DNA from: Rippkaea orientalis PCC 8801
GTDB lineage: Bacteria; Cyanobacteriota; Cyanobacteriia; Cyanobacteriales; Microcystaceae
Length of the DNA: 64,000 bases
Assembly (NCBI RefSeq): GCF_000021805.1
Contig: NC_011726.1
Location: forward strand, 868,001-932,000
Reading direction: 5' to 3'
Shown piece by piece: positions 27,139 to 56,316 of the stretch (position 1 is its first letter; each line of letters starts with the position of its first letter). The notes under the pieces are model-generated. The model searched no databases. It was not told where the DNA came from and worked only from the letters and a program-made list of their open reading frames with translations. The translations under genes and the position numbers were made by a program.

Positions 27139-27908
27139 ATGACTACAACACCAGTCAGAGAAATACCGTCTGAATCTCAATCTGAGATAAGGTTTCCCCC
27201 TGGTGATTTATACAGCGATGAACCTCCCTTGGAAAGCGATTTACACTTAAAGCAAATTATTCTTTTACTTACCTGTTTAGAATGGTTATGGAAAGGGAAA
27301 GAAGACTATTTTGCATCAGGGAATTTAACGATTTATTATAGTAGCCGACAAACCAAGTCTCAAGAATATCGAGGATCTGATTTTTTTGTGGTTTTAAACA
27401 CAACAAAAAAACGCGTAAAAGTTGGGTAGTGTGGGAAGAAGAGGGAAAATATCCCCATGTTATTGTCGAGATCCTTTCACCATCAACCGCCAAAAATGAC
27501 CGAGAAGTTAAGAAAAAAATCTATCAAGATATTTTCCGAACGCCAAATTATTTTTGGTTCGATCCTGATATTTTAGAGTTCCAAGGGTTTAAACTACTAG
27601 GGGGAGAATACGAAGCGATCGCCCCCAATGAACAAGGATGGCTATGGAGCGAACAATTAGGGCTATATTTAGGGATATATGAGGATAAATTGCGCTATTT
27701 CACTCCAGAAGGTGACTTAGTTCCCACACCCCAAGAAGCAGCGATAGAGGAACAACAACAGACTCAGAAAGCCCGACAGCGTACTCAAGAAGCGGAACAA
27801 TTAGCCGAAACTGAACGCCAACGGGCTCAGGCAGCAGAACAACGGCTACAACAACTCGAAGAAAGAATTAGAAGCTTAGGCATTAATCTTAATGAAACCG
27901 AGTTATAA
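27139..27908 (+). pseudogene. Uma2 family gene with one frameshift in an A7 run
   Basis: The first part (27139-27429) encodes the N-terminal half of a Uma2 protein, ending YRGSDFFVVLNTTKKRVKVG. The second (27429-27908) resumes with WEEEGKYPHVIVEILSPSTA, including the ExK-like VEILSPSTAKND and the FDPDILEFQGF motif. Adding one A to the run at 27405-27411 would restore a single protein (KKTRKSWVVWEEEGKY). The joined product is about 256 residues with a Gln/Glu/Arg-rich coiled coil at the C-terminus (about 205-250), common in cyanobacterial Uma2 proteins. Transcriptional slippage on A7 could still give some full-length product. Confidence 0.85.
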
Positions 27909-29747: not shown

Positions 29748-31439
29748 TTACCAGAATCCTTTCTTCCCACTGGGCATCACAGTACGCCAATTCGTTTTAG
29801 CGGCTTCGAGTTGCGCCGGGGTAATCTGAGCAAAACTGAGATCGGCTCCGCACAGATTAGCCCCCGTTAAGTTGGCATATTTGAAATTAGCCCCATACAA
29901 ATTAGCTCCCCGTAAATCTGCGCCAGTTAAATCCGCATAACCAAAATAAGCCTCACTAAAATTAGCATTTTTGCCATTAAAATCCGTTAAACTGGTACGG
30001 CCAAAATCAGCACGGGATAACTCAGAGCTTTCTAGATTGACGCGACTCAGACAAGAATTATAAAAACTAATCCCCGGTAGATTGGCTTGATGGAGATCTA
30101 AATTCTCTAACTTTTGTTGGGCAAAATCCCGCCGCCCTTGTTGATAGGCTGATAGTAAGGTTTTTGTCTTCCATTTCGTGGGAGTTTCCACCGTTGTGCT
30201 TTCTGAGGTATTACCCCGGCGTTTTTTAGTCGATTGAGCCATCCCCTGTCCGCCATTGGCTGCCCAGTTTGTGGGTCCTTTAGCAGAGGCAGGGGTTGTA
30301 GCGGCAATGGAACGGGGTTGTTTAACCTCGGTGTGAATCCTTGAAATTGGGGTAGCTTCTGGGGTACGACGATGGGATTGCTTGGCAGAAATTTCGGTAT
30401 TCATGCTTACCCTAGAAATCCCTGTAGAAAACTCTCCCTGACTGCGACCTCCTGACGATAGACCGATTTTTCCACTACTGGTCGGAGAACTAAAACCCGT
30501 AATCATCGTTGTCATGCTGTGCTGCATCCCTTCTTCATAGGGAGCCATCGCTAGGGCATCTAAGACTTCTTCCGCCGACTTGTAGCGATGCTTGACCGAG
30601 ATTTCTAGCATTTTTTTCAACACTTTGGATAGGGAATCACTAATATCTACATAGGGTTCCCAGGCGATTTCTCCTGTATCGGGATCACAACCGATGTCTT
30701 TGGGACTTCTACCAGTTAACAGGTAAACGGCGGTGACTCCTACGGCGTAAATATCACTGGCATAGACGGGACGCATGGCCATTTGTTCGGGAGGCGCAAA
30801 TCCGGCGGTTCCTACGGCAAAAGCGGTAAAGGCGGTTTGGGGGGAGTTATTGCTCGCTACCATCGAATTAACTTGATTTTTGACCGCTCCGAAGTCAATA
30901 AGGACTAGCTTTTTGTCTTTTTGGCTGCGAATGAGGTTGGCAGGTTTGATGTCTCGGTGAATGACTTTTTGAGAGTGAATAAATTGCAGAATGGGTAAGA
31001 GTTCGCTCAGGAATTGTTTAACTCCGGCTTCGGTTAAGGGTCCATTTTTTTTGATTTCTTGGTGCAGGTTATGGCCTTTGATATACTCCTGAACCAGATA
31101 AAATTGCTGATCTTGCTCAAAATAATCCAGTAATTGGGGAACTTGGGGATGAACTCCAACTTGGGCTAGGGTGCTGGCCTCTCGCTCAAACAGTTCTTTA
31201 GCCATTTTGAACACATTGGGATCATCAGTGGCTGGCCGTAGTTGCTTCACGACACAGATAGGTGTACCGGGAAGGGATAGATCGGCTGCTCCAAAGGTGG
31301 CTCCAAAACCGCCTTTTCCTAGGATTCCTAGGGGTTGATAGCGATTATTTAAGCGTAGGGGAGTCCCACAACTCTGACAAACTTGGACGTTGTTAGGGTT
31401 TTTGGGTTGGGTACAGGATGGATTTACACAGTAGCTCAT
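29748..31439 (-). CDS. Ser/Thr protein kinase with zinc ribbon and pentapeptide repeats (SpkB-like)
   Basis: The 563-residue protein begins with a Cys-rich motif (CVNPSC...CQSCG), typical of cyanobacterial SpkB-type kinases. The kinase domain covers about 33-300, with GKGGFGATF, the lysine in VVKQL, catalytic HRDIKPANLI and the metal-binding DFGAVK. A low-complexity Ser/Thr linker (about 310-440) is followed by pentapeptide repeats of A(D/N)LxG type (about 465-545: YADLTGADLRGANLYGANF, then ANLCGADLSFAQ). In Synechocystis the comparable kinase SpkB is linked to oxidative stress; transfer of that role is inference. Soluble, no TM helix. Confidence 0.92.
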   Translation of the reverse strand: MSYCVNPSCTQPKNPNNVQVCQSCGTPLRLNNRYQPLGILGKGGFGATFGAADLSLPGTPICVVKQLRPATDDPNVFKMAKELFEREASTLAQVGVHPQVPQLLDYFEQDQQFYLVQEYIKGHNLHQEIKKNGPLTEAGVKQFLSELLPILQFIHSQKVIHRDIKPANLIRSQKDKKLVLIDFGAVKNQVNSMVASNNSPQTAFTAFAVGTAGFAPPEQMAMRPVYASDIYAVGVTAVYLLTGRSPKDIGCDPDTGEIAWEPYVDISDSLSKVLKKMLEISVKHRYKSAEEVLDALAMAPYEEGMQHSMTTMITGFSSPTSSGKIGLSSGGRSQGEFSTGISRVSMNTEISAKQSHRRTPEATPISRIHTEVKQPRSIAATTPASAKGPTNWAANGGQGMAQSTKKRRGNTSESTTVETPTKWKTKTLLSAYQQGRRDFAQQKLENLDLHQANLPGISFYNSCLSRVNLESSELSRADFGRTSLTDFNGKNANFSEAYFGYADLTGADLRGANLYGANFKYANLTGANLCGADLSFAQITPAQLEAAKTNWRTVMPSGKKGFW

Positions 31440-41864: not shown

Positions 41865-43712
41865 ATGTCATCCTCGCTTGTTCAATGGTGGTCACTAAAA
41901 AGAGTGATTTTGTGTAGTAGTAGTTTGCTCATCAGTGGCTATGGAATTTTGGCTGTTAAATCGATTAAATTCGATCAAACTACCCAGGCGATCGCTTCAA
42001 CATCTAATCCAAATAGTAATACCTCAGATTGTCAATCTCCTACCTCAAATTTATCCTCTTCGTCTCAATGGTTGAGCGTTTCTGCGCCTAAAACCCTTAA
42101 TCAATCAAGTCCCCTTACCCCTATCGATTGTATCACGGCTGTTCTTCCCTTTGAGCAAGGTTCTACTAACCGTAAGATTATTATTTCTCCTAAGACATTT
42201 CCTGACCTTTGGAACGCTGCTAAAAATACTCTTAACCAATTGCCTAAACCTTTTCCAACGATTCATGAACAAGCCAGAATAGCTAAAGTTCCGATTTTAA
42301 TGTATCATGATATTTTACCCAAAAAAGAAGTTTTTTTTGATGTTACCCCCCAAGAACTTGAAGCCCATTTTAAATTAATTCAAGCCCAAGGAATAACCCC
42401 CATTAGTGTTGATTTGCTCCTAGAACATCTACAAAAAGGCGTTCCCTTACCCGATAAACCCGTTTTATTAACCTTTGATGATGCTTACGGGGGTCACTAT
42501 CACTATGTTTATCCCTTACTGAAAAAATACGGCTATCCTGCCGTATTTTCAGTGTATATCAAAAAAATGGACGGCAAGACCAAGCGAACCAGTTTAACGT
42601 GGGAACAACTCAAAGAAATGTCCATTGATCCCCTCGTAACCATTGCTTCCCATACTATTAGTCACCCCAGAGATTTACGACTCTTATCCGATGATCAACT
42701 ATTCCAAGAAATTATTATTTCTAAGAAAATTCTTGAAGAAAAATTAGGGATTGCTATTCGATATTTTACCTATCCAGAAGGAAAACTCGATCCTAGGGTC
42801 AAACAATGGGTAATGTCTGGGGGATATGAGATGGCTTTTTCTATGGATGATAATAAAGAAATTTTTGCCGGAGATTCCCCTGATTTATTAACTATTGGAC
42901 GCTTTGGCCAATCACAAATTCAACAAGTCATTAACCAAGCATGGGGAGGATATCCCACAGCAAAATTACCCGACGAATTTGATTTTCTCGCACCGATTCG
43001 TAAATTTGACCACCAAATCGAAGGAACCAATCTTATTATTATTAGTGGTGGTAAACCGAGTACCATCCATGCGGATAGTCGTTATCAAGTCCCCGAAATT
43101 ATCAAGGGAACTGAAGCGATCGCGGCTGTCGATGGAGCCTTTTTTTCCTTAGAATATCTTGATTCTAATGTGATGATTGGTCCAGTGATGAGTCAAGGAA
43201 AAACTTTTATTCCTGGTAACAAGAGTGAAAACCCGCTTCTTAATGGCCGACCCTTAGTTCTGATAAGTGATCAATGGGTTAGGTTTATTCCTTTTGATGC
43301 TAATCGTCATAATACCTTAAACGGAATCCAGACCGAATTTGAGGACGGAGAATTAATTACAGATGTCTTTGTGGCCGCAGCTTGGTTAGTCAAAAATTCT
43401 CAACCACAACCAAGGGAAAATTTTGGTAATTTATTTGATTTTGATGTTCCCAGACATCGAGCCTTTTGGGGGATTCATCAGTCAGGACAACCCATGATTG
43501 GGGTTTCCAAAGATCCCGTTGATTCAGTTAAATTAGGACGGATTTTACAAAAATTAGGGTTTAGAGAGGCGGTTATGTTAGATTCGGGAGCGAGTACTTC
43601 TCTTGCTTATCACGGGGAATCCTTGGTCGCTTATATTCCTCGTCCGGTTCCCCATGTAGTTACTTTGTTGCCGCAATGGGAATTATTAGTAAGTCAACAG
43701 GAAAGGGATTAG
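41865..43712 (+). CDS. Polysaccharide deacetylase fused to a phosphodiester-glycosidase-like domain
   Basis: The 615-residue protein has an N-terminal signal anchor (about 12-33). A CE4 polysaccharide deacetylase domain (about 140-330) has ILMYHDI, the metal-binding LTFDDAY and ASHTISHP. The second half (about 375-605) has IIISGGKPST, AAVDGAFFSLEY and the RPLVLISDQWVRF and MLDSGASTSLAYHGE motifs of the NAGPA/phosphodiester-glycosidase family. Each half is a recognised exported enzyme type; their fusion suggests remodelling of an N-acetylated envelope polymer. Substrate is unknown. The first domain's residues DD and HxxxH are all present. Confidence 0.85.
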   Translation: MSSSLVQWWSLKRVILCSSSLLISGYGILAVKSIKFDQTTQAIASTSNPNSNTSDCQSPTSNLSSSSQWLSVSAPKTLNQSSPLTPIDCITAVLPFEQGSTNRKIIISPKTFPDLWNAAKNTLNQLPKPFPTIHEQARIAKVPILMYHDILPKKEVFFDVTPQELEAHFKLIQAQGITPISVDLLLEHLQKGVPLPDKPVLLTFDDAYGGHYHYVYPLLKKYGYPAVFSVYIKKMDGKTKRTSLTWEQLKEMSIDPLVTIASHTISHPRDLRLLSDDQLFQEIIISKKILEEKLGIAIRYFTYPEGKLDPRVKQWVMSGGYEMAFSMDDNKEIFAGDSPDLLTIGRFGQSQIQQVINQAWGGYPTAKLPDEFDFLAPIRKFDHQIEGTNLIIISGGKPSTIHADSRYQVPEIIKGTEAIAAVDGAFFSLEYLDSNVMIGPVMSQGKTFIPGNKSENPLLNGRPLVLISDQWVRFIPFDANRHNTLNGIQTEFEDGELITDVFVAAAWLVKNSQPQPRENFGNLFDFDVPRHRAFWGIHQSGQPMIGVSKDPVDSVKLGRILQKLGFREAVMLDSGASTSLAYHGESLVAYIPRPVPHVVTLLPQWELLVSQQERD

Positions 43713-43958
43713 GTCTTGTTTAGGGGTCTAGACAGCCTAGACAAATTCAGACTCTCATTCTATGATAGTTCTGACGGCTCGAAGCGGGGTCAAAATCCCT
43801 GGCCTCCCGTCAGATCCCTAGAACCTTGATAATTAAAGAGTTGTAGCTGTTTCACCTCTGGGTTATAACTAAAATTGATGTCCCCAATCACTCAATTTTT
43901 TGAGTCCCGTCAGATTTAACCTCACAATCCTTATGGAGAGGGGTTTACAGCGATCGCA
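43713..43958 (+). other. CRISPR leader region
   Basis: A 246-bp AT-rich stretch sits between the deacetylase gene and the first repeat, on the side opposite the degenerate last repeat. CCCGTCAGAT occurs twice (43797-43806 and 43905-43914). A HIP1 site touches the first repeat. It is assigned as leader by position only. Confidence 0.5.
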
Positions 43959-45021
43959 GTTTCTTATTAATGAATCCTAGTAATGGGATTGAAACCCGTT
44001 GGTTGCTTCTTCTAAGGGATCAATGGTTAGGGGTTTCTTATTAATGAATCCTAGTAATGGGATTGAAACTCGATCATCCCCTGAATTGATTTGACGCGGT
44101 TAATTTGTTTCTTATTAATGAATCCTAGTAATGGGATTGAAACCTAAGCCAAAAAGGGACGGATTTAGAGGAATATTGGTTTCTTATTAATGAATCCTAG
44201 TAATGGGATTGAAACTCGTCGCCTGAATATCCCAGGGCTTTGATAGTTAAAGTGTTTCTTATTAATGAATCCTAGTAATGGGATTGAAACGGTTAGCTTG
44301 AAACTGAGCGGTTATTTTTAATAAGTTTCTTATTAATGAATCCTAGTAATGGGATTGAAACTTTTGTATGCTTCTGCCTTTAATCCTAGGGTTTTAAGTT
44401 GTTTCTTATTAATGAATCCTAGTAATGGGATTGAAACATCGTGACTTTTTCAGGCTTTTCATCTTTATCCTTGGTTTCTTATTAATGAATCCTAGTAATG
44501 GGATTGAAACTCCAACTTTTTAAAAAATAGCTTGACAATTTGATTGTTTCTTATTAATGAATCCTAGTAATGGGATTGAAACACTTTATGATTCCTTTAC
44601 TTTAGATCATGTTGGTATTTCGTTTCTTATTAATGAATCCTAGTAATGGGATTGAAACTCGTTCTTTCCAATGGGTCCGTAGCACTTCCCGCCGGGGTTT
44701 CTTATTAATGAATCCTAGTAATGGGATTGAAACTTGTTTTGTCTTCTCGTCGTCGTCGTCGTTCTTCCGTTTCTTATTAATGAATCCTAGTAATGGGATT
44801 GAAACTTTAAATGCTAAGCGATCGCATAGTTTTTTGTGCGTTTCTTATTAATGAATCCTAGTAATGGGATTGAAACAATTCTTGCAAACAAACAGTTAAT
44901 TTTTTTACTGTCTGTTTCTTATTAATGAATCCTAGTAATGGGATTGAAACTTTAATAAGTTTAAAACCCTATCAAGCCTTAAACGTTTCTTATTAATGAA
45001 TCCTAGTAATGGGATTGGAAT
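43959..45021 (+). CRISPR. CRISPR array, 15 repeats of 37 bp and 14 spacers
   Basis: Repeat copies begin at 43959, 44033, 44107, 44179, 44254, 44325, 44401, 44474, 44546, 44622, 44697, 44769, 44840, 44914 and 44985. The repeat begins GTTTCTTATTAATGAATCC and ends AGTAATGGGATTGAAAC. Spacers are 34-39 bp. The first fourteen copies are identical; the last ends GGATTGGAAT, so the array's trailer is at the right. ATTGAAAC at the 3' end is typical of repeats whose crRNAs keep that 8-nt tag. No cas gene occurs in the window, so type cannot be set. An open frame at 44609-44851 is a by-product of the array. Confidence 0.97.
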
Positions 45022-45088
45022 CTGGCTTTTGAAAGCAAAAAGTTTTTGGAGGAGGGCATAAATTCCGGTTACAAGACAAATTCTATAT

Positions 45089-45109
45089 GGGCTTAATAAT
45101 ATTAAGCCC
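45089..45109. repeat. Palindrome GGGCTTAATA-A-TATTAAGCCC
   Basis: Perfect 10-bp arms around a single A, followed by CCTACTGACT and GACTTC repeats. The same palindrome with the same CTGACTTCATT tail occurs at 60920-60960. It sits in the spacer after the CRISPR array. Confidence 0.6.
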
Positions 45110-45239
45110 CTACTGACTGACTTCTGACTTCTGACTTCATTAACGGAGGGTAGAAGCCTAAACTATCGTAAAAACTTGCCCCTATGCCGATTTTATTTGT
45201 GGCAAACATTTAGAAATTTTATAAATTTTCCTAACTGCT

Positions 45240-45749
45240 TCAACAAGATTCACTTTCAGAAATGGCTCGAATACAAGACCAATTACTAGGAAGAGAAGAA
45301 GGCCAACCCATGCGAATAGCTTCAGGACAAATAGTCATCACAGTTAACTGGCAGTCAATTAACTGAAACCCTTCTTTTTCGCATTGTTTTAAACTGTGTT
45401 TGAGAATAGAATCATTCTTAAATTCAATCGTTTTATTGCACTGAATACAGACCATGTGATGATGATGGTTAGGAGAAGGATGATTGAGTTCATAATGTTT
45501 ATGTCCTTCAGCGAGTTCCAACTCCCGCAAAATTCCCATACGGGACATCAATTTGACACTACGGTAAATGGTTGACAAACTAATGCCTTCTCCTCGTTCT
45601 TCGAGGAGTTCGTAAAGTTCCTCTGCACTTAAATGGTTGCCCCTAGGAAGATTTTGGAAGACATGGAGAATCTTCTCCCGTTGGGGAGTTAAACGCCAAC
45701 CTCTCGCATTCAATTCAGCTTTTAGGGATGTGGCAGTGTAAGGAGGCAT
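45240..45749 (-). CDS. fur: Fur family regulator, FurA-like
   Basis: The 169-residue protein begins TATSLKAELNARGWRLTPQR and carries the DNA-binding helix GISLSTIYRSVKLMSRMGIL. The metal sites are in the HHHHMVCIQCNKTIEF segment and a C-terminal Cys-containing tail (PSSLPSNWSC). The whole protein resembles cyanobacterial FurA rather than the shorter Zur or PerR paralogues. It therefore most likely controls iron genes and may sense redox and heme as FurA does in the group. It would not be the main repressor of the zinc island if this is right. Start ATG 45749; divergent from nothing, with a 196-bp upstream gap. Confidence 0.85.
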   Translation of the reverse strand: MPPYTATSLKAELNARGWRLTPQREKILHVFQNLPRGNHLSAEELYELLEERGEGISLSTIYRSVKLMSRMGILRELELAEGHKHYELNHPSPNHHHHMVCIQCNKTIEFKNDSILKHSLKQCEKEGFQLIDCQLTVMTICPEAIRMGWPSSLPSNWSCIRAISESESC

Positions 45750-55003: not shown

Positions 55004-56316
55004 TCGGAAAAATTGGGTTTGAAACCCCGTCCTTAAGCGACGGCTTGACTATTTAAGGATAGCATCTTCACAAAAGATATGTTAAACTGTTAGGCATGAT
55101 AGAACGTGCCTATCGATTTCGATTCTACCCAACTACCGAGCAAGAAAACCTCTTGCGACGGACAATGGGGTGTGTCCGCTTGGTGTACAACAAAGCTTTA
55201 GCGACACGCACCGAAGGGTGGTATCAAAGACAAGAACGAATAGGTTACGAACAGACATCAAGCTTGTTAACCGAATGGAAAAAGCAAGAAGATTTAGAGT
55301 TTCTTAATGATGTTAGCTGTGTTCCATTACAGCAATGTTTAAGGCATCTTCAAACAGCTTTTACTAACTTTTGGGGGCAACGAGCTAAATATCCTAACTT
55401 TAAGAAAAAACGTAATGGAGGTAGTGCCGAGTTTACCCGTTCTGCATTTAAGTGGAAAGATAGTAAGCTATTTTTGGCTAAAATTAAAGACCCTTTAAAT
55501 ATTGTTTGGAGTCGCTATATTCCTCAAGATTGTCAACCTTCTACAGTGACCATTAAACTTGACCCATCAGGGCGTTGGTTTGTCTCGATTTTAGTCAAAG
55601 ATTTAACGATTAAACCTTTGCCCAAGACAGGCAAAAAAGTAGGGATTGATGTAGGAGTGACTAGCTTAATGACTACCAGCGAAGGGGAAAAAGTAGCCAA
55701 TCCTCAACAATTTAAACGCTTGTACAAAAAGCTGAAAAGAAAGCAATCATGCTTGAGTCGGAAAACCAAAGGCTCAAATAACCGATATAAAGCTTGTCTC
55801 GAAGTGGCTAAAGTTCACGCTAAAATTAAAGATGCGCGTACCGATTTTCTTCACAAACTGACGACTAAACTTGTTCGAGAGAATGACCTAATTGCTATTG
55901 AAGATTTAGCCATTAGAAATATGGTTAAAAATCCTAAGTTAGCTCGGTCAATTAGTGACGAAAGTTGGGGAGAATTTGCCAGACAGTTAGAGTATAAATG
56001 CCAGTGGTACGACAGAGAATTAATTAGAATTGATTGCCATTTTCCCAGTAGTAAACGCTGTGGAAATTGTGGTCACATAATTAATAAATTACCGTTAAAT
56101 ATTCGGGAATGGGATTGTCCCGAATGTGGCACGCACCATGATCGAGATATTAACGCAAGTAAAAACATTTCGGCCGCAGGGCTTGCGGTGTCAGTCTGTG
56201 GAGCGGGTGTAAGACTTGAAGAGAGTAAATCTCGGAAGGCAACTGCATTGAAGCAGAAACCTAAACCGTGAGGTTTAGGAATCTCCGCCGTTTTACGGCG
56301 CGGGTGGATGTCAAAA
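55004..56316 (+). mobile_element. IS605-type element carrying only tnpB
   Basis: The left end begins near 55004 (CGGAAAAATTGGGTTTGAAA, with CCGTCCTTAAGCGACGG hairpin at 55028-55044). The right end has CGCCGTTTTACGGCG (56286-56300) and ends near GTCAAA at 56316. There is no tnpA inside, so mobility would need a transposase in trans. The decayed copy at 26568-27026 shares both ends. Boundaries are approximate. Confidence 0.7.
55096..56271 (+). CDS. tnpB: TnpB RNA-guided nuclease (element without tnpA)
   Basis: The 391-residue TnpB has the N-terminal MIERAYRFRFYPTTEQENLLRR, the three RuvC acidic motifs (GIDVGVTS near residue 195, IAIEDLAIRN near 266, HDRDINASKN near 350) and the zinc finger CGNCGHIINK and CPECG. 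It is intact. It differs in sequence from the TnpB at 11301, so the two come from different subgroups. The gene ends 15 bp before the right-end hairpin that would be the RNA scaffold; its guide would lie after about 56316. Confidence 0.93.
   Translation: MIERAYRFRFYPTTEQENLLRRTMGCVRLVYNKALATRTEGWYQRQERIGYEQTSSLLTEWKKQEDLEFLNDVSCVPLQQCLRHLQTAFTNFWGQRAKYPNFKKKRNGGSAEFTRSAFKWKDSKLFLAKIKDPLNIVWSRYIPQDCQPSTVTIKLDPSGRWFVSILVKDLTIKPLPKTGKKVGIDVGVTSLMTTSEGEKVANPQQFKRLYKKLKRKQSCLSRKTKGSNNRYKACLEVAKVHAKIKDARTDFLHKLTTKLVRENDLIAIEDLAIRNMVKNPKLARSISDESWGEFARQLEYKCQWYDRELIRIDCHFPSSKRCGNCGHIINKLPLNIREWDCPECGTHHDRDINASKNISAAGLAVSVCGAGVRLEESKSRKATALKQKPKP

Follow-up and report, generated by a model that had tools for sequence, protein, structure and literature searches.

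A probable type I-D satellite CRISPR array in Rippkaea orientalis PCC 8801 and its stem-forming leader element, which recurs at type V-K arrays

A CRISPR array, here called array A, is located at 43959..45021 on the forward strand of the 64-kb window, the whole stretch of DNA that was analysed, which corresponds to C3:868001-932000 (C3 being the contig that carries it) in the 4.79-Mb genome of four contigs. The array comprises 15 repeats and 14 spacers, and the start of repeat 1 and the end of repeat 15 are both exact. The repeat, GTTTCTTATTAATGAATCCTAGTAATGGGATTGAAAC, is 37 nt long, has a predicted hairpin and is present in 14 identical copies, while the last copy (44985..45021, forward strand) has decayed, ending in GGAAT instead of GAAAC and containing two mismatches. 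This decayed copy fixes the direction of the array with the leader on the left, in agreement with the initial annotation. The spacers are, in order, 37, 37, 35, 38, 34, 39, 36, 35, 39, 38, 35, 34, 37 and 34 nt long, and this range of 34-39 nt corresponds to the type I-D spacers described in section 9 of PMC10212523 (about 35 nt, varying by 5-6). The array is flanked on the left by a gene with polysaccharide-deacetylase and NAGPA domains (41865-43712) and on the right by a fur-family gene (45240-45749). A dispersed element of about 120 bp (45019-45144) abuts the decayed last repeat, and similar copies of it are found at C3:512085-512193 and C3:2511244-2511366 in the same genome and in a congeneric genome (G005). 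A Phormidium contig of the named collection carries a repeat related to that of array A.

Cas genes were searched for around the array with PADLOC, using 30 of the 45 ORFs of at least 80 aa from 24 kb to the window end (overlapping and short ones were omitted), and none was detected in this set. The sole match to a Cas profile, at 55096-56271 (Cas12u4/Cas12f profiles), was rejected as an IS605-type OrfB/TnpB by its Pfam domains. Other PADLOC matches were a strong one to PD-T4-6 at 29748-31439 and weak ones at 27429, 35993 and 37881; the 563-aa protein encoded at 29748-31439 matches the PD-T4-6 defence profiles with an E value of 1e-121, and it may simply be a serine/threonine kinase. When we compared the eight type I-D Cas proteins and the two Cas12k proteins of the same genome with the whole window by tblastn, nothing was found below E 0.06, and the best match was a 13-aa Cas2 match at 43724-43762 (E 0.064; the query was the Cas2 encoded beside array C, described below). 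The initial annotation had stated that no cas genes lie nearby, and both searches agree with it. Since tblastn found no Cas12k in the window, array A does not have the setting of a type V-K transposon array, namely cas12k with a tracrRNA upstream. A search of 38-50 kb of the window against Rfam gave nothing at the gathering threshold. The window aligns with the congeneric genome up to 43669 and again from 45226, and the congeneric genome has only 82 bp between these two points, showing that array A is absent there.

The array is preceded by a leader at 43771..43958 on the forward strand, which ends in GCGATCGC (43950-43957) and an A before repeat 1, and a second direct copy of CCGTCAG is seen in its sequence at 43907..43913 on the same strand. 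Directly upstream, the segment 43734..43770 (forward strand) resembles the last codons and stop of cas2. It reads PRQIQTLIL-stop compared with PRQVDTLIL-stop in the cas2 beside array C, and in an ungapped comparison 32 of its 37 bases are identical to array C and 12 to array B, a further array described below. The same bases hold a promoter-like site, TAGACA (43738-43743) and TATGAT (43761-43766) separated by 17 nt, so the resemblance alone is no proof of descent from cas2. The promoter-like site alone is likewise no evidence, because a scan of 43700-45300 found three such sites where 5.1 are expected by chance.

The repeat family of array A recurs in two further arrays of the genome. Array B (C3:4328521-4331328) has 39 repeats, each with C for T at one place relative to array A, and array C (C3:514094-514711) has nine, each with T for A at another place. 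The three arrays share the leader, with 177 (A-B), 174 (A-C) and 171 (B-C) identities over 188 positions, and this homology confirms the leader to the left of array A. Beside array C lies a type I-D operon (C3:514905-524848) that is complete in its effector and adaptation genes, with profile matches over the full length of cas3', cas10d, csc2, csc1, cas6, cas4, cas1 and cas2. Array A lies 387 kb from this operon and 397 kb from array C. A cas locus with the same repeat, which the initial annotation had proposed to look for elsewhere in the genome, was thus found beside array C with one base different, and the cas genes are not accompanied by a different repeat only, as the same repeat family is present at the I-D operon. 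The term orphan used in that annotation holds only locally; array A is a satellite and not a true orphan, because a complete I-D operon with a near-identical repeat and leader exists in the genome. That annotation had also considered the spacer lengths typical of type I-D or III. The lengths and the I-D part stand, and the type III assignment was rejected, since no type III RAMP protein (PF03787) was matched in the genome at E 0.001. One Cas1 (PF01867) was detected in the genome, and it is the I-D one.

No spacer is identical between arrays A, B and C. Each array holds a single repeat variant of its own and shares no whole spacer with the others, as would be expected if the three had separated first and each had then been extended from the repeat at its leader end. 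Since array A holds the presumably older repeat form, its repeat variant does not prove that it grew after this separation. Spacer 29 of array B and spacer 7 of array C match at 32 of 35 positions in the same register, and in our reading of the two sequences this likeness may reflect uptake from related targets. Spacer 23 of array B is 52 nt long and its first 15 nt are identical to those of spacer 24, which looks like irregular uptake or a rearrangement. Array B adjoins the gene of a 505-aa Cas12u2/V-U2 protein, and the two lie within C3:4328521-4333287 (L008:521-5288). Because array B has the I-D repeat and leader, the I-D system may both supply spacers to this V-U2-linked array and make use of it.

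We then consider the targets of array A. The initial annotation had pointed to a HIP1 octamer and a CGT run in two spacers as hints at cyanobacterial-host or phage sources. Both are present, the octamer (GCGATCGC) in spacer 12 and the run in spacer 11, and as the octamer occurs 34 times in the whole 64-kb window, one copy in a spacer carries little information. The hints led to no target. The search against phages returned 29 records with a best E value of 0.3, some of them matches to the repeat, and that against plasmids returned eight records, one strong and the others at E 3. The strong record, from Gloeothece verrucosa PCC 7822 (E 5e-10, 66%), was rejected, as it spans repeats and spacers and looks like another array. 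Viral contigs were scanned with 20-nt seeds from five of the 14 spacers (1, 2, 3, 4 and 10); the sole match, to the seed of spacer 2, was taken as chance, with only those 20 of the 37 bases matching. In the own genome at E 0.001, only the arrays themselves were matched. No convincing protospacer of array A, at which a GTN PAM could be read, was found among phages, plasmids and, for the five seeds, viral contigs.

The first part of the leader of array A belongs to a conserved element of 69 nt (43768..43836, forward strand), defined with a covariance model (R1) and pair counts. In this element 43771-43777 pairs with 43807-43813 as a stem, with GAAGCGGGGTCAAAATCCC in the loop and AGAACCTTGATAATT following. 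When the leader plus repeat 1 served as a DNA query against 242 genomes of the order, 20 were matched, the own genome included, some of them via the repeat alone. In a structure-free alignment of 19 sites, 91.1% of the stem cells were paired compared with 31-63% for slid partners, and 14 cells were doubly changed compared with a shuffled mean of 5.6, a level reached in none of 500 shuffles. Two other counts from this alignment did not go beyond the shuffles, namely pairs changed on both sides (4 compared with 2.5; 69 of 500 shuffles) and further pair types (9 compared with 9.2; 447 of 500). When the structure-free alignments were made separately according to the upstream neighbour of the element, the doubly changed cells numbered 30 compared with 9.4 after cas2, 41 compared with 12.3 after cas12k and 28 compared with 12.0 after neither gene, exceeding all 500 shuffles in each group (kinship uncorrected). 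The model-fitted alignment gave 104 compared with 39.1. As judged from these aligned sequences, the leader element is a stem-forming site with compensatory changes.

The covariance model matches 71 of the 242 genomes and gives five matches in the own genome, at arrays A, B and C and at two more places. Both further loci are type V-K loci. In the first (L120:5393-12096), the element at C3:3092826-3092894 lies between cas12k (C3:3090392-3092440) and tnsB, tnsC and tniQ (C3:3093652-3097095), and in the second (L121:8271-10523), that at C3:2284270-2284339 follows another cas12k (C3:2284684-2286522, minus strand), with a MerR-family gene beside it. The arrays of these loci are short and have repeats other than that of array A, one with four full copies and a decayed one and the other with three copies. 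For a wider view we examined 80 distinct matches in fetched loci, a subset of all model matches (81 rows minus one duplicate place). Of these, 26 have cas2 directly before them, 29 have cas12k there and 25 have neither gene; for the last group often only about 1.5 kb is in view, and some of its members have V-K-type repeats. A count of a simple three-box pattern was unreliable, since 20 of the 80 rows had no box at all, and it was set aside. Cas1 above the TIGR04093 cut-off occurs in 51 of the 71 genomes with the element compared with 75 of the 171 without it (Fisher p 7e-5, kinship uncorrected), and a strict link between the element and I-D Cas1 is weakened because 20 of the 71 element genomes have no such Cas1. 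In three fetched loci (L154:1574-8712, L155:16-6965 and L156:1724-6858) the elements come in pairs that face away from each other across a region with cas genes, an arrangement that would fit two arrays diverging from a single cas operon.

The element is positioned strictly with respect to the arrays. Among the 75 elements with at least 400 bp available downstream, a repeat pair with CRISPR spacing follows in 66, and no such pair was found upstream in any of the 75. The distance from the element to the first repeat was measurable in 68 of the 80 matches (no array was found in seven, and five had too little sequence), and it was 121-125 nt in 50, 130-133 nt in 13 and 153 nt in one, so that 64 of the 68 fall within these classes; the remaining four distances are 41, 48, 67 and 245 nt. 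These classes lie about ten bases apart, which suggests that the element has to be on the same helical face as the first repeat. We tentatively propose that the leader element may act as a common docking code. Its stem would be kept in helical phase with repeat 1, and the one I-D Cas1-Cas2-Cas4 module would use it to feed five arrays (A, C, the V-U2-linked B and the two V-K arrays) and thus three effector kinds; we regard this as quite possible and no stronger than that. The element might instead work as a hairpin in the RNA, close to where the array transcript begins, and not as a DNA site for adaptation, as the compensatory changes are of several pair types with some G-U pairs, and the promoter-like site, where present, lies just upstream of the stem. 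When we counted such sites, requiring 9 or more of 12 matches within the 66 bp that surround and precede the element, they accompanied 16 of 26 elements after cas2 and 13 of 25 with neither gene, however none of the 29 after cas12k, with 1.6, 1.4 and 0.6, respectively, expected from shuffles. A transcript would also not need the locked distance to the first repeat, the predicted folding is only weakly better than that of shuffles (z-scores of -1.9, -1.9 and -0.1), and PMC10212523 describes type I-D leader motifs that promote the uptake of spacers. We thus consider the RNA hairpin somewhat unlikely.

With regard to array A itself, it is very probably an ordinary type I-D satellite array that would be filled, processed and used in trans, a reading drawn from sequence comparison. 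First, its repeat (one base off), leader and spacer lengths match those of the cas-linked array C. Second, one Cas1 was found, the I-D operon is complete, and the leader is kept together with the cas2-like segment. Third, this segment is common to arrays A and C and not B, and the repeat has its hairpin. Finally, array A is absent at the same site in the congeneric genome. The points against this reading are that no protospacer was found in the searches above, that the last repeat is decayed, and that the promoter-like site is no commoner than expected by chance, with none at the leader of array B. As to its origin, a segment of cas2 end, leader and array may have been copied to this site, or a cas operon may have been lost here. 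In our reading, the I-D array promoter overlaps the 3' end of cas2, and a copied leader-array unit would therefore carry a scrap of cas2. The leader would drive pre-crRNA, which Cas6d would cut in the repeat hairpin, and the type I-D cut would leave crRNAs with a ATTGAAAC 5' tag. Cas10d, Csc2, Csc1 and Cas3' would use these guides against DNA, and Cas1-Cas2-Cas4, acting in trans, would insert new spacers next to the leader with the help of the conserved element at its set distance from the integration site.

Three other readings of the array have to be weighed. Array A could have been left behind when a second complete I-D locus at this site lost its cas operon by deletion, instead of being a copied leader-array unit, but this is unlikely. 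The cas2-like segment directly upstream of the leader speaks for such a locus, but the window contains no other cas remnant, and the 82 bp of unalignable sequence in the congeneric genome give no sign that an operon was ever present. Still less probable is a relic, formerly fed by the I-D machinery and now neither expressed nor extended. The decayed last repeat, the 14 spacers with no recognisable target (only part of them scanned against viral contigs) and the missing array in the congeneric genome would fit a relic, however 14 of the 15 repeats are identical, the decay is at the old end only, as in living arrays, and the leader is kept as well as that of the cas-linked array C. Finally, it is highly improbable that guides from array A serve the V-U2 protein encoded beside array B, whether in place of the I-D complex or in addition to it: array B does share the repeat family and leader, but relatives of the protein at E 1e-40 occur in just 5 of 242 genomes, own included, the four other V-U2 loci (fetched stretches) have a repeat array in one and this leader in none, which leaves a general link between V-U2 and the leader unsupported, and a complete I-D operon accompanies this repeat family at array C.

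The satellite array is in itself routine, and the greater interest lies in its leader. For CRISPR-associated transposons and V-U effectors that lack cas1, the way in which spacers are acquired is not settled. Here one detected Cas1 faces five arrays, with I-D-type and V-K-type repeats and the same leader element, so the proposal of supply by I-D is directly testable. Publications already cover both the leader motifs of type I-D and the idea that its adaptation serves V-K transposons. The type I-D section of PMC10212523, citing Kieper 2019, gives leader lengths of 202-220 bp and describes three motifs (I-III) by which spacer uptake is increased, and the review PMC11406308, citing a preprint, relays the suggestion that V-K transposons may be supplied by the adaptation machinery of type I-D. 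PMC6293099 reports a cyanophage V-U2 locus that has an array, and further related literature comprises PMC9938897, PMC11656645 and PMC13383573. In the literature covered, which excluded Kieper 2019 and Hsieh and Peters 2021, we found no report of a covarying stem or helical spacing in these leaders, and newness is not claimed; the stem with compensatory changes and the spacing steps of about one turn would be concrete additions if not already published.

We finally compare array A with known systems. It is similar to the type I-D system of Synechocystis, as far as this is described in the relevant passages of PMC10212523, in the repeat end GATTGAAAC, in spacers around 35 nt, in a long leader with conserved motifs and in the presence of cas3'-cas10d-csc2-csc1-cas6-cas4-cas1-cas2 in the genome. 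It differs in lying 387 kb from the operon. Like orphan or satellite arrays served in trans, array A has no local cas genes and a cognate operon elsewhere in the genome, and unlike them it keeps a cas2-like segment upstream of the leader. The two type V-K transposon arrays of the genome have the leader element of array A, and in them it is equally far from repeat 1. They differ in their repeats, in an adjacent cas12k (in one case with tnsB, tnsC and tniQ) and in having no promoter-like site before the element.
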